Positions 44,236 through 64,000 of a stretch of 64,000 nucleotides of DNA are shown in pieces; position 1 is the stretch's first letter; every line of letters starts with the position of its first letter. Origin of the DNA: Cladopsammia gracilis (lineage: Eukaryota; Cnidaria; Anthozoa; Scleractinia; Dendrophylliidae). Made by a program: the position numbers and the translations under genes. Where the stretch lies: the NCBI GenBank assembly GCA_022457155.1, contig JAJGOT010000320.1, positions 607,501-671,500 of the forward strand, given 5' to 3'. Under the pieces are notes generated by a model, which worked only from the letters and a program-made list of their open reading frames with translations, had not been told where the DNA came from and ran no database searches.

Positions 44236-44323
44236 ACAGAAAAAAACCCGAAAATAACACAAAAAAAATGCCTTTTTAATAGTCACACAACGAAAAGCTA
44301 TTTTTACATGCGGTAACATGAGT

Positions 44324-44530
44324 TCAATTCATGAATGGATTTGTTCGTGTGTTGTAGATTTCACCCCAATAGCTTCTGGGTGGCGGCGGTTTGTTCTTTG
44401 CGAGCCAGTCGTCAATGGACCCGAGAGCAAAATACCGAATGCAATGGTTGCATAGAATCCAGGGATCGGCGCTGCGGGTGGTCCATTGTCGGAAGCCGCA
44501 CACGATCAGGGATTTCAATTGCGTCATGAC
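44324..44530 (-). CDS. Alternative terminal exon, unit H (last)
   Basis: Acceptor CTCCGTTTCAG. Phase 0, 68 codons. Module: VCGFRQW ... CNHCIRY ... GSIDDWL, then a proline/aromatic tail. Nothing matching the module is seen further left. Confidence 0.65.
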   Translation of the reverse strand, partial: VMTQLKSLIVCGFRQWTTRSADPWILCNHCIRYFALGSIDDWLAKNKPPPPRSYWGEIYNTRTNPFMN

Positions 44531-44691
44531 CTGAAACGGAGGAAACCACTGTCAATGGAACCACGTGTTTTTTTTCGTAAACAATGTTGGCATAAAAACA
44601 CTCGAAGATTGGGAGTGATCCATTTAGGCACCAAACGGGTGGACCATAGGGTGTGACCGCAAACAAACAGGGATGTCAATTGCGTCATGAC
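44524..44691 (-). CDS. Alternative terminal exon, unit G
   Basis: Acceptor CATTTTTTCAG. Phase 0, 55 codons. Module: VCGHTLW ... CQHCLRK ... GSIDSGF. It begins VMTQL, like unit H, and is its closest relative. Its TGA stop overlaps the ATG of unit H (ATGA). Confidence 0.65.
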   Translation of the reverse strand, partial: VMTQLTSLFVCGHTLWSTRLVPKWITPNLRVFLCQHCLRKKTRGSIDSGFLRFRS

Positions 44692-44707
44692 CTGAAAAAA
44701 TGGAAAG

Positions 44708-44869
44708 TCACGTTGAGTGGTTTTGTCGCTTTTTGTATTTCAACCAATCGTCAATGGTTCCCAGGCCCAGTCCCCGCACGCAATGGCAGCATGGATAGGA
44801 AAGAAAGAAGGATCGCGTGGACCATAGGTACATGGGGCAAACGCGAAAAGACAGCAATTGATCCAGAAT
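44708..44869 (-). CDS. Alternative terminal exon, unit F
   Basis: Acceptor TTGTTTTTTCAG. Phase 0, 53 codons to TGA. Module: VCPMYLW ... CCHCVRG ... GTIDDWL. No ATG near its start. Confidence 0.65.
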   Translation of the reverse strand: MLDQLLSFRVCPMYLWSTRSFFLSYPCCHCVRGLGLGTIDDWLKYKKRQNHST

Positions 44870-44918
44870 CTGAAAAAACAACAACAACATTTATTCACGA
44901 TTGTTTTTTAAAAAATAA

Positions 44919-45164
44919 TTACACGTGTTGATAAAAACGTAAATTTAAACGTTTGTCCGCAAAAGCAACGAGATGATCATCGTTGTAAACGGCGTCGTGT
45001 CTGTCCATAAAGTCGTCGTGAGCCCAATCGAGGGAATGGGCGACGAGAAAATCGAGTCGCCCAAACAGTTCTATGCGTCGACAATGTTGACAATAAGGCA
45101 ACGCGGGATTGGTGATCCATTTGGTGCACGGACACACGACGGATTGCCCGAGTTCTTGCATCAA
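44919..45164 (-). CDS. Alternative terminal exon, unit E (long)
   Basis: Acceptor TTTCTTTTAG directly abuts it. Phase 0, 81 codons to TAA. Module: VCPCTKW ... YCQHCRRI, then an extended acidic/hydrophobic tail. An AATAAA on the minus strand about 25 nt after the stop (44890-44895) is a candidate poly(A) signal of its own. Confidence 0.65.
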   Translation of the reverse strand: MMQELGQSVVCPCTKWITNPALPYCQHCRRIELFGRLDFLVAHSLDWAHDDFMDRHDAVYNDDHLVAFADKRLNLRFYQHV

Positions 45165-45305
45165 CTAAAAGAAACGGAGAAGAAAACGATCGTCAATGTC
45201 CCCGTCTGTCCATCGTCGCAAACAATGTTGACAATACGATGACGGAGTGGGATCGCCCCAAATAGAAACGGCGCAAACGGGCAAGTCTTGTATTTCTAAA
45301 ATCAA
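45165..45305 (-). CDS. Alternative terminal exon, unit D
   Basis: Acceptor CTGTACAG. Phase 0, 46 codons ending in TAG. Module: VCAVSIW ... YCQHCLRR ... GDIDDRF. No ATG at its start. Its TAG stop supplies the AG acceptor of unit E. Confidence 0.65.
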   Translation of the reverse strand: MILEIQDLPVCAVSIWGDPTPSSYCQHCLRRWTDGDIDDRFLLRFF

Positions 45306-45333
45306 CTGTACAGTGTGAAATAAAAAATGAAAA

Positions 45334-45495
45334 TTAGTGATCTCCGCGTTTCCTTCTTTTAATCAAACGATCAATTTTGCCCTTGAAGACTTTACGATTA
45401 CAATGTTGGCACACCGTAGGATTGTTCGTATGTTTTTCGGTGTTCAACCATAGCGAGCGTGGGCAGAGGTACAAGTCCCGTAACTGTGCCGTGAT
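45334..45495 (-). CDS. Alternative terminal exon, unit C
   Basis: Acceptor after TTTTTTTTCACCCCACAAACACAG-type tract (the AG is at 45496-45497). Phase 0, 53 codons to TAA. Module: LCPRSLW ... CQHCNRK ... GKIDRLI, then a basic tail. No ATG near the start, so splicing is needed to translate it. Confidence 0.65.
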   Translation of the reverse strand: MTAQLRDLYLCPRSLWLNTEKHTNNPTVCQHCNRKVFKGKIDRLIKRRKRGDH

Positions 45496-45519
45496 CTGTG
45501 TTTGTGGGGTGAAAAAAAA

Positions 45520-45651
45520 TTACAGATTAACAACACGTCGCCGGCAGTAGAGGCAAGAGAGGTCCCACACAATAAACGATCGTCGACTGGGAGAGGGTCG
45601 CACCCATTGCGTGACAGGACAGCGAAGCAAGGTGCGGATTTCGACCATCAC
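45520..45651 (-). CDS. Alternative terminal exon, unit B
   Basis: Preceded by a T-rich tract ending TACAAG (acceptor). Open in phase 0 for 43 codons to TAA. Module: RCPVTQW ... CLYCRRR. It lacks the G-x-ID motif of the other units. An internal ATG at codon 2 would also allow separate initiation. Confidence 0.6.
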   Translation of the reverse strand: MMVEIRTLLRCPVTQWVRPSPSRRSFIVWDLSCLYCRRRVVNL

Positions 45652-45675
45652 CTTGTAGTTAAAGAGGAAAAAAAA

Positions 45676-46155
45676 TTAAAGGTTACAAAGTTTCCGGGAT
45701 TGCATCAAATCGTCGTGGCAGTCATTGCAATAGCCATTGGTCCAATGGGCGGAATGGGGGTTTTGGATGGAACGCACTTTGGTTAATAATTGATCGATGG
45801 CCCCGTAACGCCGTCGACGGGAGCAATGGTTGCAACCGACACATCTGACTGAATATTTGACCCATTTATGAAATTGGCAAACACGATGAAATACAAGGTC
45901 GAAACATACCCGTGCCATGCGTTCTCGGTGCAATTGCCTGGCCGCCAAATCCAGGATGCGTTCTTGGAGGATGATGGGTAAATAATCCCAATAAGACTCT
46001 CCATGGGGAAGCGAGGCAGTCTGAGATGGATCCTCTCCCTCCGGTTCCACTTTCACGCGTTTGGCGACCAGGGTTTCCTTCTCATCCATGACACGTTTCC
46101 GCTTGGCACGCATGACTTCCACCACCGAGGGAGTGACCACTTTGTTGGACGCCAT
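45676..46155 (-). CDS. F-box-like viral protein: common 5' exon plus read-through tail (unit A)
   Basis: The unspliced frame encodes 159 residues. The N-terminal half is basic/acidic and disordered with a lysine-rich, NLS-like stretch, followed by DYLPIILQERILDLAA, which resembles the first helix of an F-box (LP-x-E-x-x-x-I-L). After residue 82 the DNA reads CACGG|GTATGT, a strong splice donor in phase 0 (exon end 45910). Read through the donor, the frame continues into module VCQFHKW ... CVGCNHCSRR ... GAIDQLL, then a second Cys pair (CNDC). A TATA-like TATAATAAG lies at 46221-46229, about 65 nt upstream of the ATG. F-box proteins recruit substrates to SCF ubiquitin ligases; the F-box match is weak and is an inference. 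See the seven units at 44324-45651. Confidence 0.7.
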   Translation of the reverse strand: MASNKVVTPSVVEVMRAKRKRVMDEKETLVAKRVKVEPEGEDPSQTASLPHGESYWDYLPIILQERILDLAARQLHRERMARVCFDLVFHRVCQFHKWVKYSVRCVGCNHCSRRRRYGAIDQLLTKVRSIQNPHSAHWTNGYCNDCHDDLMQSRKLCNL

Positions 46156-46220: not shown

Positions 46221-46229
46221 CTTATTATA
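46221..46229 (-). promoter_or_regulatory. TATA-like box for the F-box-like gene
   Basis: TATAATAAG on the minus strand. The same nonamer with flanking GAGxGTATAATAAGAG-like context precedes the plus-strand gene at 60419. The surrounding 100 bp is an inverted duplicate of 60280-60395. Confidence 0.55.
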
Positions 46230-46384: not shown

Positions 46385-46963
46385 ATGTTGGGGTACGCGA
46401 TGGATCCGTTGTCCGTGAAAAACGTGTTATTGACCAAGGAATTGAACGAAGTGAAAAAAGAAAATCTGTTCCTGCGAAAGGCCATGGCGGATGTCACGTG
46501 TCAACTCAGTGGGGTACCCTGGAGCCAGATTCCGAGTTGCGTCGAGGCCTTGAAGACCGACAACTCGTCCCTCCGCGCTCGAATCGAGACCTACCAACGG
46601 GACAAAATGCAGTGGTCGACAGACATGAAAGAGGCCCGCGCTCGAGTCGAGACGTTGCAACGGGAGAAAACGCAGTGCTTGAAAGACACGAAAGAGGAAC
46701 GTCGTCGGGGTCTGCAATGGCAAGTGCGCTGCGATCTCTTGTTGGACCAAATTTTGTGCAGGGAGTGCGAAGAGGAGAAAGATGCCGCCTACCACACGGG
46801 ACACGGTTACGACTGGGAACCCAACTGTTGCGAGGGATCCTGTAAATTGGCCAAATATAATTTGCAGGCTGGGATGGACAAGCACGTCGGCGAATTTGTT
46901 ATCCCCGAGTATTTCGAGAAGGATCCCCGCTTACAAGCCCTCGAAAAACAGTTGGTGAACTGA
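46385..46963 (+). CDS. Coiled-coil protein with C-terminal cysteines
   Basis: 192 residues; family not recognised. Residues 15-30 and 55-120 are heptad-rich coiled coil, with an internal repeat of the type R-x-E-T-x-QR-x-K-x-Q. The C-terminal third has CREC and NCCEGSC, possibly binding zinc. It is transcribed divergently from the F-box-like gene, with AATAAA at 47030-47035 as a likely poly(A) signal. A role in virion assembly or regulation cannot be chosen from sequence. Confidence 0.8.
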   Translation: MLGYAMDPLSVKNVLLTKELNEVKKENLFLRKAMADVTCQLSGVPWSQIPSCVEALKTDNSSLRARIETYQRDKMQWSTDMKEARARVETLQREKTQCLKDTKEERRRGLQWQVRCDLLLDQILCRECEEEKDAAYHTGHGYDWEPNCCEGSCKLAKYNLQAGMDKHVGEFVIPEYFEKDPRLQALEKQLVN

Positions 46964-49738: not shown

Positions 49739-50599
49739 TTATGGATTGGTGATGCGGGAGGAGGTCCGTCGTACGGTGGGTGCTTCGCCGTTGTCTTCGT
49801 ACACCGTGGTCACGGTATTGGTATGCGTGAGATTGCGTATGCGACGGTTGCGGGCTTGCTGTCTGGCATCTTCCGCCAACAGATCCATTTGTCGACGCAT
49901 CTCCTCTTGATTGCGTCGATTGGTCGGGCCGGGACCGCGACGTCCTCTGGGTCGTCTGCCACGTCCGCGAGGGGAACGAGGCGGAGAGAGCGATGACGAG
50001 GAGGAGGAGGAAGGGGACCCTCCCGGTCCGCCGGGAGCGCCTGCTGCCGTCCTGGTGGTGGCCGAGACGGTCGTGGGTGGGGCGGTGGCGGCAGGTGACG
50101 CGGGGGAGCCTGCGTCGTCGTACGGGGGGAGGGTGGCCATGTACCTCTCCAAATCGTCGTCGGTGATACGGTATTGTTGCCGCAATCGCGTTTCTTCCTC
50201 TTTCGTCATGGGCGCGTTGAGGATCCGATGCATGACCAAATTCCTTCTCGTGCCAGAGACGGCTCCGGACGGAGTGGGTGGCAGGGACGGCGATGGAGAC
50301 CGAAACGAGGAGGAAGAGGAGGAGGAGGCGACGGCACGACGTGGCGGGGATACTGCCAATCCCAATTCTTGCAACAACTCGGTCGGGTTCAGGTCTCGAG
50401 GGGACGAAAAGGAGGTCGACACCCCCACTCCCGCCGGACGCGCCGTGGCAGCGGGTTGGGGGCTCGTGCCTACTCCGGCCGGCGACAGCGTGGCCAAAAC
50501 TCGTTCCATCTGTTCCAGGTATTCCGGATCCAGCAGGGCGTCGTCGCTCTCCCGCGCATCGCGAATGAGTTGCGGGGAGGGTGAACTTTCACGACTCAT
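49739..50599 (-). CDS. Large disordered structural-type protein
   Basis: 286 residues: Ser/Pro/Ala-rich low complexity with poly-Ser tracts, a short folded-looking helix (TKEEETRLRQQYRITDDDLERY), an RGRGRRPRGRR basic patch, and a charged helix near the C-terminus. Family not recognised. The ATG overlaps the ATPase stop (ATGA), so it is probably co-expressed with the packaging ATPase. Confidence 0.75.
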   Translation of the reverse strand: MSRESSPSPQLIRDARESDDALLDPEYLEQMERVLATLSPAGVGTSPQPAATARPAGVGVSTSFSSPRDLNPTELLQELGLAVSPPRRAVASSSSSSSFRSPSPSLPPTPSGAVSGTRRNLVMHRILNAPMTKEEETRLRQQYRITDDDLERYMATLPPYDDAGSPASPAATAPPTTVSATTRTAAGAPGGPGGSPSSSSSSSLSPPRSPRGRGRRPRGRRGPGPTNRRNQEEMRRQMDLLAEDARQQARNRRIRNLTHTNTVTTVYEDNGEAPTVRRTSSRITNP

Positions 50600-51228
50600 C
50601 TCGTTTCTTCAAAGACCACCGGAGGCGCTTCTCGTTCGCGCAGATTCGTCCACAACCGAAACCGATCGTCGGACGCCGGGTGGAGATCCAACATTAAATA
50701 GCCAAAGGGATTCTGCGTGCAGAGGTTGAACACGTCCATCACCCCTTGCCATTGGTCCGGGAATGCTTGCAACGCCAAATTTCGCATGCCCGTGCGATCG
50801 CGCGGATTCTTGAAGGCGATGACATAATGCGCATTTCGGTTGATGGTCTTGGCAAATTTACCGGGCGGAAACAAATCTTGCGTCAAATAAAACACCGTGA
50901 TGTTGCGATGATGGGAATCTTTGGTGAATAAATCCAACACGCGCTTGTCGTTGCCCCCTTCTTCCATGAGATCGTCCAACACCAGAATATCGCCCCCTCG
51001 ACCCTCGAACCATTGTCCCAAGTGAGAGGGGGTCGGGATGCCTTGATGAAATCGAACGCCTTTCTTCTTCATGTCAGTAAAGCGGGGTTGCCACACCCCG
51101 TAACAGTACACGATCCGAGCCGGGGTCCGTTGAAACGCGCGTTGTTCCGTCAACAGATCGTCCAGCAATTGGGTTTTGCCGCATCCCGAGGGGCCACCGA
51201 CCATGACGCTACTCGGCATACGAATCAT
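50596..51228 (-). CDS. Genome-packaging ATPase (A32/FtsK-HerA type)
   Basis: 210 residues from the ATG at 51228, which overlaps the upstream stop (ATGA) and starts MIRMPSS just before the Walker A motif GGPSGCGKTQ. Walker B is DILVLDDLM, followed by a sensor-like YLTQDLF and NPRDRTG. This is the adintovirus/Polinton packaging ATPase that pumps genome into the capsid. The frame is open further upstream, but the ATGA start fits the junction pattern of this element. Complete and intact. Confidence 0.9.
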   Translation of the reverse strand: MIRMPSSVMVGGPSGCGKTQLLDDLLTEQRAFQRTPARIVYCYGVWQPRFTDMKKKGVRFHQGIPTPSHLGQWFEGRGGDILVLDDLMEEGGNDKRVLDLFTKDSHHRNITVFYLTQDLFPPGKFAKTINRNAHYVIAFKNPRDRTGMRNLALQAFPDQWQGVMDVFNLCTQNPFGYLMLDLHPASDDRFRLWTNLREREAPPVVFEETR

Positions 51229-51491
51229 GGTGCTAGGTAGTGATCGTACCATCGAGGGGTGCGTTGTTTTATCGAGGTTGCCACGCTTTCCCTGACGCGG
51301 GTTTCTCCGCAAGTTTGAAGCGCGGTCACCAGAGCATCCCAGTCACCTCGTTCGGCCAGTACACGCAATCGACGATACTGACGATAATCCCATCGATTCC
51401 ACAAGACATCCTCGGGATGGCAAAGAATTTCTCCCCATTCCAATTCTCTCAAGCTTTGAATCACGTGTTGCGCATCTTGTCTGGTGATCAT
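51225..51491 (-). CDS. Small conserved-looking protein upstream of the ATPase
   Basis: 88 residues from MITRQDAQ at 51491. Helical, with WNRWDYRQYRRL and a C-terminal WYDHYLAP. Family not recognised. Starts 14 nt after the preceding stop and ends in an ATGA overlap with the ATPase. Confidence 0.65.
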   Translation of the reverse strand: MITRQDAQHVIQSLRELEWGEILCHPEDVLWNRWDYRQYRRLRVLAERGDWDALVTALQTCGETRVRESVATSIKQRTPRWYDHYLAP

Positions 51492-51796: not shown

Positions 51797-51865
51797 GTCG
51801 TCTCGAATGATTTTCCCTCCCCAGCCAGGGATGGCTCTTTTTATGATGAAAAAAAAAGAAAGAGA

Positions 51866-51937
51866 TGCAATGACCAGGATTCGAACCTGGGTCTCTGCGG
51901 CCACAACGCAGCGTCTTTACCACTAGACCATCAAAGC
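51866..51937 (-). tRNA. tRNA-His(GUG)-like gene inside the viral element
   Basis: 72 nt. An anticodon stem CTGCG/CGCAG closes a loop TTGTGGC with anticodon GTG. The A box TGGTCTAGTGG and B box GGTTCGAATCC are intact, and the T stem CCAGG/CCTGG is perfect. The acceptor stem has two T-T mismatches (positions 3-4), so it may be decayed or may need checking. A T-run on the minus strand just after the 3' end is a pol III terminator. Lies between the protease gene and a small virion gene. Confidence 0.85.
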
Positions 51938-52098
51938 ATTCGCTGTCAAATGGGTCTGTTTTTTAATTATTTAAATTAAAAATTGCACCGGAAACACTTT
52001 TTTTTTTCAACCACTTGTTTTATTTTCTTTTTTTTAACAACAACCATAACAATAATAACAACAACAACTGTTTTTTTTCTTTTCTTCCTTCCTCTGTT

Positions 52099-52662
52099 TT
52101 ACACATGGAAATGTTCCTTGTTCTCTTGAAAGCTCACGCTGCATTGACGATTGGGGACGGCATTGTCCACTTCGCTCAGTTCTTCCTGGATCAAGGCTTT
52201 GACTCGTTGCGCCACTTTGGCGTCGTTGGATACCAGGTCGTGCGGCGAAAAGTCGGCCAAAAACTCTTCAAACGAGACCCCTCGTACTCGCGCTTTGAGA
52301 AACAGCAAGGCGTAATGTCCGCAGGTTTGACTCCGGAGGGCTTGTAGGGTCATACCGCTTCGAAATACCGTGGGCCATTGCGCCAACCATTCGTGCATGC
52401 CCGGGGCCGGGTATGTGGTCAAGGGCAACCCGTAACTGTCAAAGACTTCGCAACCTCGTCCCGGTTCGGTCCACACGGCCAGCCAATGTTTGCCCGGTTC
52501 CCCCGTCGGGTCCGTGTTCACGATGTAGCCTGCCCGGGTCGTCACGGTGGGAGGTTGCGGCAATCCGTCCGACGGGACCACGTCCCAAAACACGCGTTTC
52601 AAGGTGTCGTCGTCCCTGGCCAGGTAGCGTAACACGGTATCACTCAGCGCTACAAATTCCAT
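52099..52662 (-). CDS. PRO: Adenain-like cysteine protease
   Basis: 187 residues with the adenovirus-protease catalytic order: His in GKHWLAVW, acidic residue in EVFDSYG, and Gln/Cys in SQTCGHYALLF. Matures virion precursors, normally cutting after XGG or (M/L/I)XGX. Likely substrates are the GG-containing small proteins in this element. Located between the capsid protein and the ATPase cluster. Minus-strand AATAAA at 52019-52024. Confidence 0.9.
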   Translation of the reverse strand: MEFVALSDTVLRYLARDDDTLKRVFWDVVPSDGLPQPPTVTTRAGYIVNTDPTGEPGKHWLAVWTEPGRGCEVFDSYGLPLTTYPAPGMHEWLAQWPTVFRSGMTLQALRSQTCGHYALLFLKARVRGVSFEEFLADFSPHDLVSNDAKVAQRVKALIQEELSEVDNAVPNRQCSVSFQENKEHFHV

Positions 52663-55785: not shown

Positions 55786-55791
55786 TTTATA
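55786..55791 (-). promoter_or_regulatory. TATA box overlapping the integrase stop codon
   Basis: TATAAA on the minus strand, with the integrase TAA stop (55787-55789) inside it. Drives the penton gene. Confidence 0.65.
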
Positions 55792-56869
55792 GCGAGGTCA
55801 TATGGCGTTTGGGGATCCAACTATCGTATTTGCTGGGCCACCCCTTCCAACGCACCAACACGTTCCGTCCTCGTCGTCGAAGCACTTTTTCCACCCGAAA
55901 CACGGCATCGTCCGGCACCTGGACTTTTTGCACGTCTTCTTTGTAAAAAGTCCCTTCCACGGGCGTTCCGTCCCATTCTTGGATCTTGTAGGTGGGTACG
56001 GGGCCTCCTCGGGCGCGTTGCACGATGAACACTTCTTCCGTCCATCCGGGCAAATACCCCTTTTGGAAAGGACGATGTTTCTTGTTGAGTCGAACGCGAT
56101 CCCCCACCTTCAACGTCGGGCGTTTCCATCGTCGAAGCCGTTTCTCGTACAAGCGATCCCACACGGTGCGTTCGTTGGCGCGGGTCACTTGGTTCGGGGG
56201 CAGGCCAATACTTCGATGCGGGGTGGCGTTGTACCCTCGGACCAACAGCGGCAACCGATCCTCGTACCGGAGCGTATTCAGGGCGGTAAACATGCGGTAC
56301 ATGCGTTCCTTCAACGTGCGATTCCATCGTTCCACCACGGCGGCTTTGCTATCCCCGCGCGTGGAAAAGAGCGCAATTCCTCGCTCTTTCAGAAACGTTT
56401 GGAAGGGCCGGTTGTAAAATTCTGTCCCGTCGTCCGTTTGCAACCGCAAGGGTTGTCGTCCTTTGCTGCCTCGCAGAATCGAGGCAAAGGCTTCCGTCAC
56501 GGCTTTGCCGGTCTTGTTCTTCAAAGGCACCGCCCACGCGTACTTGGACAAGACGTCGATGACGGTCAAAATGTAGCGGTACCCCTTATTCCATTTCTTC
56601 AAGGCCGACATGTCCACCAAATCGGCCACCCATTGTTCGTCGCGGGCAAACACGATCACGGGGGTGGTGGGAAACCGTTTCCGACGCGGTTTGTGCAGGG
56701 TATAACTCAAGAGCCCTTCCAAGACGCGTTTGGCCCGTGCCAGAGGCAACCCCGTCTGCTGGGCAAATCGTTGCACGCCCCCCAAACTGCCTTTTTTCTC
56801 GGGGGATTCGTAAACCTCTCCCCAACTGACCGAGGCTCGCTTTTTTTGGGATTTGGCACGCGGGGCCAT
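55787..56869 (-). CDS. IN: Retroviral-type integrase with C-terminal chromodomain
   Basis: 360 residues from MAPRAKSQ at 56869; the frame is open to 56941. DDE catalytic core: first Asp in VADLVDM, second Asp in LQTDDGTEF, and Glu in VVERWNRTLKE, about 35 residues after the second Asp. A basic linker and an SH3-like segment (LKVGDRVRLNK) follow. Then a chromodomain (VLVRWKGWPSKYDSWIP) at the extreme C-terminus. Polinton/adintovirus integrases insert the linear genome and make 5-6 bp target duplications (family knowledge). The chromodomain may steer integration to methylated-histone chromatin. Confidence 0.9.
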   Translation of the reverse strand: MAPRAKSQKKRASVSWGEVYESPEKKGSLGGVQRFAQQTGLPLARAKRVLEGLLSYTLHKPRRKRFPTTPVIVFARDEQWVADLVDMSALKKWNKGYRYILTVIDVLSKYAWAVPLKNKTGKAVTEAFASILRGSKGRQPLRLQTDDGTEFYNRPFQTFLKERGIALFSTRGDSKAAVVERWNRTLKERMYRMFTALNTLRYEDRLPLLVRGYNATPHRSIGLPPNQVTRANERTVWDRLYEKRLRRWKRPTLKVGDRVRLNKKHRPFQKGYLPGWTEEVFIVQRARGGPVPTYKIQEWDGTPVEGTFYKEDVQKVQVPDDAVFRVEKVLRRRGRNVLVRWKGWPSKYDSWIPKRHMTSL

Positions 56870-57035
56870 GTCGTTCGCCAATGGGATCCGAAGCACTCGT
56901 AACAAAAGGGGAGGAGGGAAGGGGACTTTTATCGTTAACAAACAACAACAACCACACCGTGAATGTTCTTGACAACAACATGTTTTTTTTAATCAACCAA
57001 ACAAGATAATATTTTTACATGTAGAAAAGCAATGT

Positions 57036-58151
57036 TCAATGTTCAATCCCGTCTGACACGTATTTGTACTTGCCACGGGGTGACTCTTCCGCGGCTCTGG
57101 CCAACCTCTCGGTGACTCGACGCATCCAATAGTCAAAGGTGGGGGTCGGCTCGTCGGGCACGTACTTGTCTTTCAACCACTGCACATCCCTCAACATCTC
57201 CAACGAAGGGTCTTCTTCTTTCAGGTACCGCCACAAGGCCTGCACGTAAATGATCTTTTTCCATTTTGGGACAAGTTTCATCTCCTCGTACGCCTCCTTC
57301 AAGTAAGGGCGAGAACTCAAATTTCTGAATTCTTCGGGATAGGCAATGGTGTTCTTCGTTCCCGCCACCACGAACCCTCCTCGCCAAAACTTGTTCCACC
57401 GGGGAATCTCTGGCTCTCTTTCTGGCTTGCTTTCTTTGTCGACCTGGGGCGGTTCCCAAGAGGTCCACGGCACGGGGTGGTACTCCTCTTTCTTGACGCG
57501 GGGTTTCCAATGGATCCACTGGAAATACCCACAGCGTTCTTTGCCAAACTGTTCCACGCCTTTCTGGTTGACGCCGCAGGTCAGGAACACCTTTTGGTAA
57601 TTCTTGGGGGACAGACTCAGTTTCATTCTCGGTCTCAACCCGCAGTCGCAACGCAAGGAAGACCACTGGGCTTTCAGGGCGGGGTGAAGATGGTCTTTCA
57701 ATTCTTTCAACATCGTGTCCAAGTGACGGGTGGGAATGAACACCAGACATCCCTCGTGACCGCAACGTTCGTAAGAAAAGTCGCCGCAACTGCCCGGGCA
57801 CAAGGGTTCCCACTCGTGAATGGGGCACGACAAATCGGTGACGACGACGGGGGACTGGGGTGGAGGGTCCGTCTGCGTGGCCGCGTCCACCAGGTTGGAA
57901 AGAACCGGGTCTTTGCAAAGGCTCGCCAGAAATGCATCTGCCTCGTTCTCTTCTTCCTCGGTCAACAAGAGAGGTTCGGGGGAATGAGGTGGCAGGACGT
58001 CCACGGGGGCATTCAAGATCGCCATTTCCTCGGGGCTCAATGTCTCGTCTTTCTTCTTCTTCTTTTTACTCCCTTCGGCATCGCTCTTGGTTTTACGTTT
58101 TTTAGGCGCAGCGACGGGAGTCGGTTGCGTGGCCACTCGACTCATACTCAT
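57036..58151 (-). CDS. Protein with GRF-type zinc finger
   Basis: 371 residues. A Lys-rich N-terminus (NLS-like), an acidic stretch, then Cys-rich CPIHEWEPLCPGSCG ... CGHEGC. The next segment, RCDCGLRPRMKLSLS ... VFLTCG ... CGYFQWIHW, matches the GRF zinc finger (C-x-C ... C ... C-G-x-F-x-W) found in topoisomerase III and nucleases, which binds single-stranded nucleic acid. The C-terminal 150 residues are unrecognised. Possibly a replication accessory protein; not a core Polinton gene known to me. Confidence 0.75.
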   Translation of the reverse strand: MSMSRVATQPTPVAAPKKRKTKSDAEGSKKKKKKDETLSPEEMAILNAPVDVLPPHSPEPLLLTEEEENEADAFLASLCKDPVLSNLVDAATQTDPPPQSPVVVTDLSCPIHEWEPLCPGSCGDFSYERCGHEGCLVFIPTRHLDTMLKELKDHLHPALKAQWSSLRCDCGLRPRMKLSLSPKNYQKVFLTCGVNQKGVEQFGKERCGYFQWIHWKPRVKKEEYHPVPWTSWEPPQVDKESKPEREPEIPRWNKFWRGGFVVAGTKNTIAYPEEFRNLSSRPYLKEAYEEMKLVPKWKKIIYVQALWRYLKEEDPSLEMLRDVQWLKDKYVPDEPTPTFDYWMRRVTERLARAAEESPRGKYKYVSDGIEH

Positions 58152-59063: not shown

Positions 59064-59663
59064 ATGTCGATGGCCATGGACATTCCCGTTTTGAACGACT
59101 ACACCATCATCACGGGTGGAGCACCGGGCGTGGACGCCGAGGCGGAACGTCAAGCCCTCCATTTCGGGACTCGTTTGGACGTGGTGATTGGACCCCATCA
59201 CCCTCGCCGTCAAACCATCACGCCCTTGACGGAAGAAGAATTGAACCGAGCCGACAGTTACTTTATCACGGCGCAGACTCGATTGGGAAAAGGGGTTTCC
59301 AACGCCATCACGGCCGAATATTTGAAACGCAACTTTCACATTGCGGCACGGGCCGGCAACGTCTACGCGTTTGGGTTCTTTACCTTCAACCATAAACAGA
59401 TGAAAGGAGGGACGGGGTGGACCGTGGAATATGCCAAGCAATTGCATCGGCAGATCTTTGCCTACGACCTGGAGAAATCGCGATGGTACAAGTACAACTA
59501 TGGCACCGCCACGTTTCACGCGATGGGGAACGGCAATTTTCCGCTCTTACACACCCAGAGTGCCATTGTGGGTTCCCGCTATGTGGACAATTACCCCCGA
59601 TGGAAAGAGGCCCTCGCCGGATTATTCGAGCGCACCGTGGGTTGTCTACAATCACTGCATTGA
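59064..59663 (+). CDS. SLOG-like nucleotide-binding Rossmann protein
   Basis: 199 residues. The first strand-loop-helix is TIITGGAPGVDAEAERQA, the GG-x-x-G-x-D signature of the SLOG/DprA/LOG superfamily. A second glycine-rich segment, GGTGWTVEYA, follows at about residue 115 and could complete the ligand pocket. SLOG domains bind nucleotide-derived ligands and occur in nucleotide-signalling and immunity systems; a role in sensing or removing a nucleotide signal is inference. Intact, with its own promoter-like element. Confidence 0.7.
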   Translation: MSMAMDIPVLNDYTIITGGAPGVDAEAERQALHFGTRLDVVIGPHHPRRQTITPLTEEELNRADSYFITAQTRLGKGVSNAITAEYLKRNFHIAARAGNVYAFGFFTFNHKQMKGGTGWTVEYAKQLHRQIFAYDLEKSRWYKYNYGTATFHAMGNGNFPLLHTQSAIVGSRYVDNYPRWKEALAGLFERTVGCLQSLH

Positions 59664-59850: not shown

Positions 59851-60213
59851 TCACAGTTCACCGTCACGAAAGGCAGCCATTTCCTGAAAATCACAACCCA
59901 GTGATCTGCAATGGGGGCACTTGAATAATAGCATCAGCCTCCCGTTCTCCTCGACCCACTTCAACAGGCAACTGTCGTGGCACCAACCACTGCAACAAAA
60001 CAATTTGTTGGCCCGCGCGCGGTAAAACTGTCTGGCCAGCGTCCCGTCTCGCTTTCTAAACTCTCGCACACAGAGCTTCTTCTCCTCCAGGCATATGATG
60101 CACTTTCGGTCCTCCTCCTTCTCTTCCTTCTTCTTCTCCCACTCATTTCTTCTCCTGTCTTCTTCATTCATCTCGATCGAAAAAATGGTCACATGCTCAT
60201 CGACAGCATTCAT
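59851..60213 (-). CDS. RING-type zinc protein (possible E3 ubiquitin ligase)
   Basis: 120 residues from MNAVDEHV at 60213. This ATG is chosen because TATATAAA (minus strand, 60256-60263) lies 43 nt upstream; the longer open frame runs through the promoter. A charged coiled stretch (residues 18-38) precedes CIICLEEKKLC ... FCCSGWCHDSCLLKWVEENG ... FKCPHC, a C-x2-C ... C-H-x2-C ... C-x2-C cross-brace arrangement as in RING/RING-CH E3 ligases. The long insertion between the first and second cysteine pairs is atypical. Confidence 0.75.
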   Translation of the reverse strand: MNAVDEHVTIFSIEMNEEDRRRNEWEKKKEEKEEDRKCIICLEEKKLCVREFRKRDGTLARQFYRARANKLFCCSGWCHDSCLLKWVEENGRLMLLFKCPHCRSLGCDFQEMAAFRDGEL

Positions 60214-60255
60214 CTTGACAGTTTTTGGTGTGAGTTTGAAGCCAAGCCCTCGGCC

Positions 60256-60263
60256 TTTATATA
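60256..60263 (-). promoter_or_regulatory. TATA box for the RING-type gene
   Basis: TATATAAA on the minus strand, within the divergent promoter 60214-60418. Confidence 0.65.
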
Positions 60264-60375
60264 GATCCCCGCACACCTCCCGGCCGGGGTCTGGGGCGAG
60301 TGAAAAATCAAGACCCATACCCCCCCATGGGTACCTCGTTCCTTCCCCAGCATGCATTGTCCTTCTCCTCGAGAG

Positions 60376-60384
60376 TATAATAAG
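60376..60384 (+). promoter_or_regulatory. TATA-like box for the 60419 gene
   Basis: TATAATAAG, 35 nt before the ATG at 60419. Same nonamer as at 46221-46229 in an inverted duplicate of the region. Confidence 0.6.
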
Positions 60385-60418
60385 AGGGCGGGTACCGCCC
60401 GACGACGACCTTTTTCGC

Positions 60419-60646
60419 ATGGAGTGCTTTCACTGTCGCATCTCTCGCATCAGGAGAAGAGATCCATTGACCCTATTGCAGACCTATCGAGGGGAAACCA
60501 TCACCCTATTCGTGCGTGACGTCAAGGAAGCCAAACGCCGACGGTTTAACTCGCGGCAACTCCATTTGTGTCGTTGCTGTAGAACGCTGTTCAACCTCGC
60601 CGATCGGGACAAGTTGTTTTTCCTAGTCCTCTTCGTCGAGTGTTAA
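60419..60646 (+). CDS. Small zinc-ribbon-like protein
   Basis: 75 residues with two cysteine pairs, CFHC at residues 3-6 and CRCC at about residues 51-54, and a basic middle. Family not recognised. The spacing of paired cysteines recalls the modules of the 44324-46155 array, but the Trp is absent. Ends 11 nt before the polymerase ATG, so the two may share an mRNA. Confidence 0.65.
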   Translation: MECFHCRISRIRRRDPLTLLQTYRGETITLFVRDVKEAKRRRFNSRQLHLCRCCRTLFNLADRDKLFFLVLFVEC

Positions 60647-60657
60647 AACCCTTCAAA

Positions 60658-63600
60658 ATGGCCGACCTCGAGGAGGAAGAATTGGACGACGACGTCTTGT
60701 TGGAGGCCATGGAAGCCGCGGAAGAGAGCAACCGGGGCCACCTCTTCGAGTTTCGACTCACCCCGGGCACGGATCGACGCGTGCAAAGGTTTGGGTTACG
60801 TCGTCGCGTGTTCGATGCCACCCTCCACGCTCGCACGGAACTCTTACAACCCCCACAATACGACGTGGGTTACGAACTCGAACAGGCGTTGCGTCGGGCC
60901 ATCGATCGCCAATTGGAGGAGGAACAGTTAACCGACGACGATCACGTGTTGTTCACCATGCAACATCCCAGCTTTCTGCACGCCTTTCAATCGTTTCACG
61001 TGCCGGTGCGGGAATGGCGCGAACAGAGTCAGCGGGTCACCCTCCTCTTGCAAAAAATGGCGGAGAAATTAAACTCGAACGAACAATTCAAAGCGGACGA
61101 TCGCTTGAAAGTGCAAATCACCACCGTGAAGGATCCCGGACGGGGCAGCGGTCGTCGAAAGGAAGCCATCCCGGGCAACGTCCCCATCCTGACCTTTCTC
61201 GAAAAGAAAAGGTGCGTCGTCAAAATCCACAATCGGGACGAGTTGTGCTGCGCTCGGGCTCTCGTCACCATGCAAGCGTGGGCCGACGAACTTCCCCCGC
61301 GTCGACGGACGCCGGAGCTTGGCTACGTATCCTTGAAAAAAGGTGGTCCGGGTCAAACCCGATTGGCCAAGGCTTTGCACGCTTTGGCTCGCGTTCCCGA
61401 AGGGCCTTGCGGGTTGGGAGCCCTCCATCAATTCCAAATCGTGTTGCCGGACTATTACATCAAAGTCCTCAGCGCCGATGTGGGTTACCAAGTGATCTTT
61501 GGACAGGGCGAGAAACGCGCCGACCAACGTTACCTGTTTCTCTTGAAACACGACGATCATTATTACGGCTTGACCTCCATCCCCGCCATACTCGGACGCA
61601 GCTACTATTGCCACTTGTGCGACAAGGGGTACGACCACGAGGATTTTGCGCATCATCCCTGCGTGAAACGACGTTGCGTGGCCTGCAAACAGAAAGACTG
61701 CCGCGATTACCTGGCACTCCTCCCGGGCAATAGCAAACCCCCACGACCGACGCAACGCCCGTGCCCGGACTGTCGACGCTGCTTTTACGGAGACCGTTGC
61801 TACGAGAATCACCGGGTGTTTTCGCCCAACGGACAAGGGGCCGACACCCCGCAACACTCCGTCTGCGCCAACCTCCAAACGTGCGAGGATTGCTGCAAAT
61901 CCCTCGACTGGTGGAAAAATCGACGCAAACGTCAACGTCCCCACAAGTGCGAGGAATATTTTTGCAAGACCTGCAAGGATTATGCGGATGTCACCACCCA
62001 CCGTTGTTACATTGACCCGGTGCACGATCCAGACCCGGAGGAGGTGGAAGCAGCAGCAGCGGGACCGCCTCCCGCCAAACGCGCCAGACCTGCCCCGCGT
62101 CACGCCGCCCACGCCGTCCGTTTCCTAGCCGCCAACGAGCCCGAGTCGGGGGAAGACGAAGACGAGGAGGAGGAGGAGACTCGGCCCCGATTGCCGCCTT
62201 ATTTCGTGTATGCGGATTACGAATGCACGCAGGACGACCAATTGCACGTGCCCATCCTCATCTGCGCCAAAGGGGAGGACCATCTCGACACCGTGCCCGC
62301 CCGGGCATTTTTACGATTGGCTGCTGACCAAAACGGAAGTGCTGGGCGAACCGCGGGAAGTCATCGTGATCTTTCACAATTTCAAAGGTTACGATGGGAT
62401 GTTCATCCTCCAGTACCTCTACGACCATCGCATCGAGGTCAAAGATCAAATTTGCGTGGGATCGAAAATCTTGAGCCTGAGAGCCGGACGGTTGACGTTC
62501 AAGGACAGTCTGTGTTTCCTCCCCTTTGCCCTCTCCTCCTTTGCCGCCACGTTCAATCTGACGGAAAGCAAGAAAGGTTTCTTCCCGCATTTCTTCAACA
62601 CCGAGGCCCATCAAGAGTACGTGGGGCCTTGGCCCGAGGCGCGCTATTACGACCCCGAGGGCATGAAACCGGGCGTGCGAAAAGACTTTGACAAATGGTA
62701 CAAGACCGTGCAACATCTCGAGTTCAATTTGCACGAGGAAATGCTGGCCTACTGTCGATCGGACGTGCAAGTGCTCAAAGCCGGCTGCGAAATTTTTCAG
62801 CGGGAATTTGCCGCCAAAGCCGATTTCAATCCCATGGAGAAATGCGTGACCATCGCCGCGGCCTGCATGCGGTATTACCGCAAAAAACATTTACGTCCCC
62901 GCACCCTGGCCTTGGAACCCCCCTGCGGATGGAATGGAAAAAGAGGGCACCAATCCCTGAAAGCTTACCAGTGGTTGGAATGGCAGAATTCCCAACAAAC
63001 CCAAGGGGTCATTGCGCACGCGTTCAACGGGGGCGAACGCACTCTCCAAGTCGGGGGCCGTCGGTATCAAGTGGACGGATTCAACGAGACGACCCGCACC
63101 GTGTACGAATTTCACGGGTGTTTGTGGCACGGATGTCCCGTCTGTTTCCAGGGGAGTATGACCAAGACCACCCGTCTCCACCCCGATCGCGCCAAGTGGG
63201 AAATGCACGAAGCCACGATGCAAAAACAGCGGCAATTGGAAGCCGGCGGGTACCGCGTGGTCGTGGTCTGGGAATGTCAGTGGGAGCAGTTGCGTCAACG
63301 ACCCGACGTCGCCGCCTTTCTCGAGTCGCGCCCGTTCACCGTCCCTTCGCTGAACCCACGCGACGCCTTCTTCGGGGGCCGCACCAATGCCGTACGACTA
63401 TGGGACGAAATCGACGAAACGCAAGGGGAAGAAATTCGGTACGTGGATGTGACGTCACTGTACCCCACCGTCAACAAGTACGACCAATACCCCGTCGGAC
63501 ACCCCGTCATCGTCACCCAGCCGGTGCAAGACATTGCCCAATACTTTGGCATCGCCGATTGCACCGTCTTACCGCCCGAGGGGTTGTTTCATCCAGTGCT

Positions 63601-64000
63601 GCCGTACCGTTGCCATGGCAAAATCACATTCCCCCTGTGTCGAGCCTGCGTGGAAGAAGAGATCCCCAAACGGATGACCGAGCGAACCTGGGTGTGCGAA
63701 CACACGGCGAGTCAACGCAGCATCCGAGGGACGTGGTGCACCCCCGAGCTCGTCAAAGCCGTGGAAAAAGGGTACCGCATTCTCCAAATTCACGAAGTGT
63801 ACCACTTTCCCCCCGCGCAGCGACGTACCGGGCTGTTCGAGGACTACGTCAACGTGTGGCTGAAAGGAAAAACAGAAGCCTCCGGGTGGCCCCCGAACGC
63901 CGACGGAAGTCTCAAAACACCGGAGCAGCAAACGTTCTTCCTGAATGATTATTGGGGACGGGAAAGGATCCGACTCAATCGGGACAACATGAAATCGAAC
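60658..64000 (+). CDS. polB: Protein-primed family B DNA polymerase, frameshifted, cut by window end
   Basis: Starts at ATG 60658 (AAAATGG context), 12 nt after the previous stop. The N-terminal 500 residues contain Cys/His clusters (CHLCDKGY, CVACKQKDC, CPDCRRC, CEDCC) as in Polinton polymerases, and a Lys/Arg-rich linker. The 3'-5' exonuclease motif is FVYADYECTQ. Between about 62285 and 62330 the conserved protein changes from frame 1 to frame 2. After that the frame stays open to 64000, with a FHNFKGYDGMFIL exonuclease block, a GCLWHGCP zinc segment and the palm motif VDVTSLYPT. The later palm/thumb motifs lie outside the window. The shift equals a one-base gain or two-base loss and disables this copy unless it is a sequence error. 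Confidence 0.88.

Follow-up and report, generated by a model that had tools for sequence, protein, structure and literature searches.

Arrays of alternative terminal exons are known from animal genes. In Drosophila lola and mod(mdg4), which are cellular genes of tens of kilobases (kb), with trans-splicing in mod(mdg4), a shared N-terminal BTB part, BTB often being a cullin-adaptor fold, can be followed by any of many alternative 3′ exons, which supply different Cys-rich modules as the end of the protein. Adenoviruses use alternative 3′ splice sites in E4 and L1. Atadenoviruses, double-stranded DNA viruses thought to be related to polintons, have RH genes that were reportedly described as F-box proteins by Both in 2002. 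Here we describe a locus in the coral Cladopsammia gracilis (assembly GCA_022457155.1, contig JAJGOT010000320.1, positions 607,501 to 671,500; this whole stretch of 64,000 nucleotides (nt) is called the window, and coordinates refer to it). The locus appears to belong to a Polinton/adintovirus-like element and has a lola-like layout: one donor and several homologous, acceptor-headed terminal exons, all in one phase. Our favoured reading, judged from sequence, is a spliced array of alternative 3′-terminal exons in one viral gene, to which we give a probability of roughly 0.86; this figure leaves aside any adaptor function of the product.

The whole layout spans about 1.8 kb (Table 1). The common exon ends at a boundary reading CGG/GTATGT; reading through it gives tail A, and the units B to H follow, with first exon bases at 45651, 45495, 45305, 45164, 44869, 44691 and 44530. 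All units in the window are open, each has its own stop, and tail length runs from 43 to 81 codons without the stop. The units occupy all three genomic frames (A, B, C and G in one, D and E in another, F and H in the third), and each is nevertheless in phase 0 after its AG. The spacers from stop to next acceptor measure 24, 24, 28, 0, 49 and 16 nt, G and H overlapping, and hold scarcely more than acceptor sequence; the pyrimidine tracts of E and H are themselves coding, forming the ends of D (FLLRFF) and G (GFLRFRS). The AATAAA between E and F and the ATTAAA after H make two polyadenylation sites possible, and a second ATTAAA falls within unit C, at 45363.

We propose that a single pre-mRNA would be transcribed leftward towards the end of the element, and that its fixed 82-codon exon would either remain unspliced, yielding tail A, or be spliced from one strong donor onto any of the seven acceptors. 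Competition of the seven acceptors, together with intron retention, would give up to eight proteins with a shared front and differing tails, and acceptor choice could be free or regulated. What would distinguish the products is a small Cys/Trp module, C-x4-W...C-x2-C-x-R, beginning exactly at the junction.

The anatomy of the array is beyond chance. First, the seven unit acceptors take ranks 1 to 7 among the 30 AGs between 44350 and 45880, under a frame-blind score of pyrimidine-tract and 3′ splice-site context with approximate weights; the donor ranks first of 119 GTs between 44324 and 46300 under a matrix that is also approximate. Second, in none of 2000 dinucleotide shuffles were the top seven AGs all followed by phase-0 frames of at least 42 codons, the best result, six of seven, coming from one shuffle. 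The Cys and Trp residues described below (C11 and W16) were found at one of the top seven AGs in 4 of these shuffles and at none in the other 1996. Third, leave-one-out profiles recovered every unit, with expectation values (E) from 1.1e-14 to 7.1e-5, the best non-unit segment scoring 0.0017 to 0.29. The first-pass annotation of this DNA had given the coordinates, phases and stops of the common exon and units correctly, and its view that such phase matches are hard to get by chance agrees with the shuffles and ranks. Its proposal of a cassette system in a viral element, in which one fixed exon precedes a set of alternative terminal exons, is likewise favoured by the ranks, by the copies and by the diverged lineage considered below.

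Table 1. Predicted features of the array, in window coordinates
Feature	Position	Strand	Remarks
Common exon, 82 codons, MASNK...RMAR	45910..46155	-	Basic stretches KRKR, KRVK; F-box-like stretch WDYLP..ILDLAARQLHRERMAR
5′ splice donor GTATGT, phase 0	45904..45909	-	Also Val-Cys codons of read-through frame
Unit A, read-through (intron-retained) tail, stop included	45676..45909	-	Kept in P0002, partly in P0003
Unit B, acceptor ...ACTACAAG, stop included	45520..45651	-	
Unit C, acceptor ...AAACACAG, stop included	45334..45495	-	
Unit D, acceptor ...CTGTACAG, stop included	45165..45305	-	Final codons double as pyrimidine tract of E
Unit E, acceptor ...TCTTTTAG, stop included	44919..45164	-	
Unit F, acceptor ...TTTTTCAG, stop included	44708..44869	-	
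Unit G, acceptor ...TTTTTCAG, stop included	44524..44691	-	7-nt overlap with start of H
Unit H, acceptor ...CGTTTCAG, stop included	44324..44530	-	DNA 77% identical to G over 71 nt
AATAAA then GT-rich sequence, possible internal polyadenylation signal	44890..44895	-	Between E and F; motif match only
ATTAAA, possible terminal polyadenylation signal	44275..44280	-	After H; motif match only
Candidate TATA box, TATAATAAG	46221..46229	-	Upstream of common exon; by eye

The modules are alike at fixed distances from the junction. Counted from the junction, residue 11 is Cys and residue 16 is Trp in all eight, A included, which goes beyond the C-x4-W...C-x2-C pattern originally noticed; C-x2-C with an Arg two residues later is invariant in them too. 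G-x-I-D is present in six of eight, as had been counted before, E having GRLD and B none. Every module opens with Val, Ile or Leu directly after the junction, as if each tail completed one helix of the front domain. Since A aligns with B to H from its first residue at the donor, donor and acceptors lie at one homologous codon. Identity between units at codon positions 1, 2 and 3 is 0.445, 0.562 and 0.384. G and H differ by 0.41 nonsynonymous (dN) and 0.81 synonymous (dS) substitutions per site, most remaining unit pairs being at or near saturation.

With the common exon plus A as query, the genome (1469 contigs, 877,814,584 bases) gave at least 99 matches at E ≤ 0.01, some being fragments of the same copy. 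Seventy loci were studied: 30 returned with the search, window copy included, and 40 of the remainder, divergent ones first. A site was counted where C11 and W16 came in phase 0 after an AG; this rule overlooks units whose Cys or Trp has changed and includes, in many loci, one chance off-frame site within the common exon. At least four such sites were present in 58 of the 70 loci, one or two in three, and none in nine. Altogether 401 sites were in phase 0; 37 were in one of the other phases, most of them a single site that recurs from locus to locus, and 2 were antisense.

For 57 copies an alignment was made; it omits L001 (the window copy), L031, L032, L033-L039, L041, L043 and L070. The unit acceptor AGs are changed in only 3 of 363 cells (36 gapped), against 65 of 1171 (140 gapped) for 23 other AGs of the array and 128 of 824 for AGs of the common exon. 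The donor GT is kept in 55 copies and changed in two (L044, L064), and GTs other than the donor are changed in 602 of 5584 cells.

Substitutions in these copies point to purifying selection on the units. Codon positions 1, 2 and 3 of the units differ at 0.043, 0.027 and 0.049. Measured against the window, dN/dS is 0.50 for the pooled units (57 copies), 0.30 for the common exon (50 copies) and 0.53 for A (54 copies); among single units it is lowest in H (0.25, 28 copies), D (0.30) and E (0.33). These estimates omit codons with gaps or stops, as well as any unit in which more than three codons are gapped, and they probably understate past selection because inserted copies mutate freely and share ancestry.

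The predicted layout is also kept across a deeply diverged lineage. Two loci on two other contigs, L031 and L032, are 35% and 37% identical to the window protein over about 118 residues; they are 91% identical to each other and are the sole two copies of their lineage found in the genome. Their donor reads AAAAAG/GTATGTGA, that is, AAG/GTATGT. Each has seven AG-headed units with C11 and W16, the AGs taking ranks 1-6 and 14 of 78 in L031 and ranks 1-5, 7 and 14 of 85 in L032. Between the two, the pooled seven units give dN 0.062 and dS 0.144, with single units straddling a ratio of 1. A unit-by-unit orthology with the window in array order was tried and is unsupported (the collinear sum ranks 409 of 5040 permutations); unit D is the only clear reciprocal match between the window and L031. 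A gene 52-65% identical, in pieces, to a DprA-like gene of the window element adjoins both arrays, so that L031 and L032 too seem to lie within a related element, with a different gene order.

Protein searching with the common exon plus A found only P0002 and P0003, both on short contigs and both 69% identical in the common exon. Some relatives in the genome lack the array. In two loci, L041 and L043 (69% and 73% identical), the common exon is followed by A, and about 3 kb downstream hold no units; ATA TGT in L041 and CTA TGT in L043 stand where the window copy has GTA TGT, so there is no donor. Upstream flanks of these array-less copies (L041 3778-4001; L043 3585-3808) match element genes at 49739-50599 and 60095-60646, which are not the neighbour of the window copy, and gene order therefore differs. 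The loci L033-L039 have a related front domain (e.g. SYWDYLP...LHRERM.VVC) with a different Cys/His C-terminus and no array. No confirmed relative came from IMG/VR scans with exon 1 plus A, a polymerase piece, the ATPase alignment and the A2 query, none from a genome-contig search with A2, and none at E 10 from a protein search with the unit alignment.

Several observations weigh against a spliced, functional array. Codon-usage support is weak: of the three sense frames, frame 0 scores best in 7 of the 9 segments, D and H being the exceptions, and the codon bias of the units is weaker than that of the core genes of the element. Ratios of dN to dS reach 0.61-0.75 for B, C, F and G, highest in F (0.75, 50 copies). 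Some copies have stops or indels within units, for example in E in 9 of 50 gap-free copies; these are expected of inserted copies and equally of slack selection. The Fisher value for these site comparisons is optimistic, the copies not being independent. Branch-point-like YTNAY sites occur no more than 50 nt from five of the seven acceptors, with none for F and G. No common pairing element able to enforce exclusive acceptor choice was found, and docking/selector RNA pairing, sought between the part of the intron near the donor and the sequences preceding the acceptors, did not clearly exceed that in shuffles. Better-scoring AGs that head no C11/W16 unit number two in L031 and one in L032, and L070, a broken copy, retains the donor without units.

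What the common part does is a separate matter. It may be an F-box-like adaptor whose modules bind different partners, and in the fullest version of this idea at least seven splice-selected recognition modules on one F-box-like adaptor would let a 1.8-kb gene direct the host ubiquitin ligase to many targets, the arrangement being kept over deep divergence while recombination-driven turnover of modules reflects an arms race; we offer this version tentatively, as more doubtful than probable. A reading with a real, if less than even, chance accepts the same splicing and array layout and dispenses with the ligase: the common part would be a helical nuclear domain, and the modules would bind nucleic acid or host factors. 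In its favour, no Pfam F-box family finds a match up to E 10 in P0001-P0003, in pieces of the exon, or in L031, L033, L036 and L041; the basic stretches of the common exon, which by eye resemble nuclear localization signals, and the C-x2-C module would also fit. The sole Pfam hint, from L031, speaks for the adaptor: PRANC, which we take to be F-box-like, at E 0.084, below cut-off. So does motif spacing, L031 reading WDSLPPELSEYILDL...MKKVC and the window copy WDYLP...ILDLA...MARVC, in both cases close to F-box spacing; the F-box-like stretch of L031 is LPPELSEYILDL. F-box-related genes, including RH0, are moreover present in atadenoviruses, according to the accessible part of PMC7551158, and PMC3588083, in its accessible part, treats viral use of F-box proteins.

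The structure models are poor. That of exon 1 plus A (P0001) has a predicted local distance difference test score (pLDDT) of 47.1, and the 48-residue F-box-like stretch has no sequence match in PDB. That of unit H reaches pLDDT 66.6, and Foldseek found no fold match for it (best E 4.8 in PDB and 0.73 in a viral structure library). Four invariant metal ligands were looked for in the modules, and only three Cys, C11 and those of C-x2-C, are invariant in all eight; a fourth may vary among modules or sit in the common exon, and zinc binding is plausible. The initial readings of the common exon as F-box-like, perhaps recruiting a ubiquitin ligase, and of the modules as zinc knuckles find no confirmation in these searches. 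We set aside two sets of PDB sequence matches: those of A2 are to DpHF filament chains only (best E 6.4e-5) and lie in its variable N-terminal part, and those of the unit profile are an aminomutase (E 0.027) and weaker C-x2-C matches.

The remaining alternatives deny that the units are spliced exons. The units might be silent cassettes, a recombination reservoir rewriting tail A much as in antigenic variation. Unit number does vary among copies through recombination, several copies having a single unit where the window has G and H. (One copy, L055, has an additional D-E pair, a case of array growth through recombination.) Such a reservoir has no need for acceptors at a homologous codon or for conserved AGs, and A remains distinct in relatives; we consider this very improbable.

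Still less probable is that the units are decayed tandem duplicates, dead copies of the second half of the gene with splice-like sites that are remnants or chance. The units are mutually homologous, the DNA of G and H is 77% identical, their number changes by recombination, and some copies have stops in them. Internal stops in gap-free copies number 0 of 53 for D, 1 of 25 for H, 2 of 23 for G, 4 of 48 for B, 4 of 53 for C, 4 of 45 for F and 9 of 50 for E, compared with 6 of 47 for the common exon and 19 of 50 for A; hidden insertions may count as stops, since the alignment is forced to the length of the window. The first-pass annotation had said in advance that random stops and lost splice sites in related elements would mark the units as decayed. 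Examined for this, the donor and acceptor AGs prove to be retained far better than matched dinucleotides; dN/dS is below 1, all window units are open, and a lineage at 35-37% identity has the same layout, with stops and indels in some copies as the qualification. That the units are independent small genes with internal starts is scarcely credible: Met stands at residue 2 in B, E, G and H, and F has an in-frame ATG inside its pyrimidine tract (contrary to the earlier claim that C, D and F have no usable ATG), but C and D have none before Cys11, spacers of 0-49 nt leave scant room for promoters, and the AG directly before the units is conserved.

The putative array lies, on the evidence of its neighbours, near one end of a Polinton/adintovirus-like element. 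From base 1 to about 44000 the window has a guanine-plus-cytosine (GC) content of 0.31-0.42 and is animal-type DNA, with a rhodopsin-family receptor gene at 1625-2584; GC is 0.47 over the array and 0.52-0.58 from 46001 to the right edge of the window, beyond which lies the right end of the element. We assign the element from a gene set of family B DNA polymerase (PF03175, DNA_pol_B_2, E 6.6e-41; 62210-64000 +, truncated by the window end), retroviral-type integrase (55787-56941 -; rve E 1.9e-12, with a chromodomain at E 0.00017, below the family cut-off), packaging ATPase and a weak adenain-type protease candidate (52099-52662 -; Peptidase_C5 E 0.0098, below cut-off). The ATPase open reading frame (ORF; 50596-51312 -) itself matches weak AAA families only in Pfam; it has 940 homologues at E ≤ 1e-5, and among the best 120 of them some carry precomputed PF04665 and some come from Porites, Montipora and Oculina. 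Two ORFs of 518 and 340 residues adjoin the protease; considered for a double jelly-roll capsid protein, they have no Pfam match, the former having only a weak PDB match (E 0.67).

Further genes were noted in the element. A tRNA-His gene (GTG anticodon) lies at 51864-51938 -, between the ATPase and protease genes. The DprA-like gene is at 59064-59663 + (PF02481, E 1.4e-8), and an ORF at 57036-58151 - has a weak GRF zinc-finger match (E 0.003, below cut-off). A coiled-coil-like ORF with a 63-nt tandem repeat (46385-46963 +) is divergent from the neighbouring common exon, and a relative of it, 64% identical, adjoins L070.

In the literature on polintons and adintoviruses and on viral exon duplication, with subscription papers mostly uncovered, we found no terminal-exon array in a virus or transposon; none is described in the accessible parts of PMC11071296, PMC13201242 and PMC6431247. 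If the favoured reading is true, one promoter and one exon suffice for a small element to diversify an accessory protein, and the gene need not be duplicated as a whole. Donor and units are both absent in L041 and L043, and units turn over elsewhere, which would make this element family a natural system for the origin and decay of exon arrays. Compared by description, the Stylophora coral adintovirus and other polintons of PMC11071308 belong to the same coral-associated polinton/adintovirus class, and the accessible text of that paper mentions neither F-box nor splicing nor introns. The atadenovirus RH genes resemble the present gene as F-box-related accessory genes near one genome end; they are described as separate ORFs, and the accessible part of PMC7551158, from whose description we compare them, mentions no shared exon with alternative tails and no splicing. 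Adenovirus E4 and L1 share with it one donor, several acceptors and compact, overlapping coding, but their acceptors open different genes rather than homologous interchangeable modules. Closest in design are lola and mod(mdg4), with one shared front and many alternative Cys-module tails; here the design is compressed into about 1.8 kb of a virus-like element, with 0-49 nt spacers, a coding read-through tail across the donor, and unrelated sequence.

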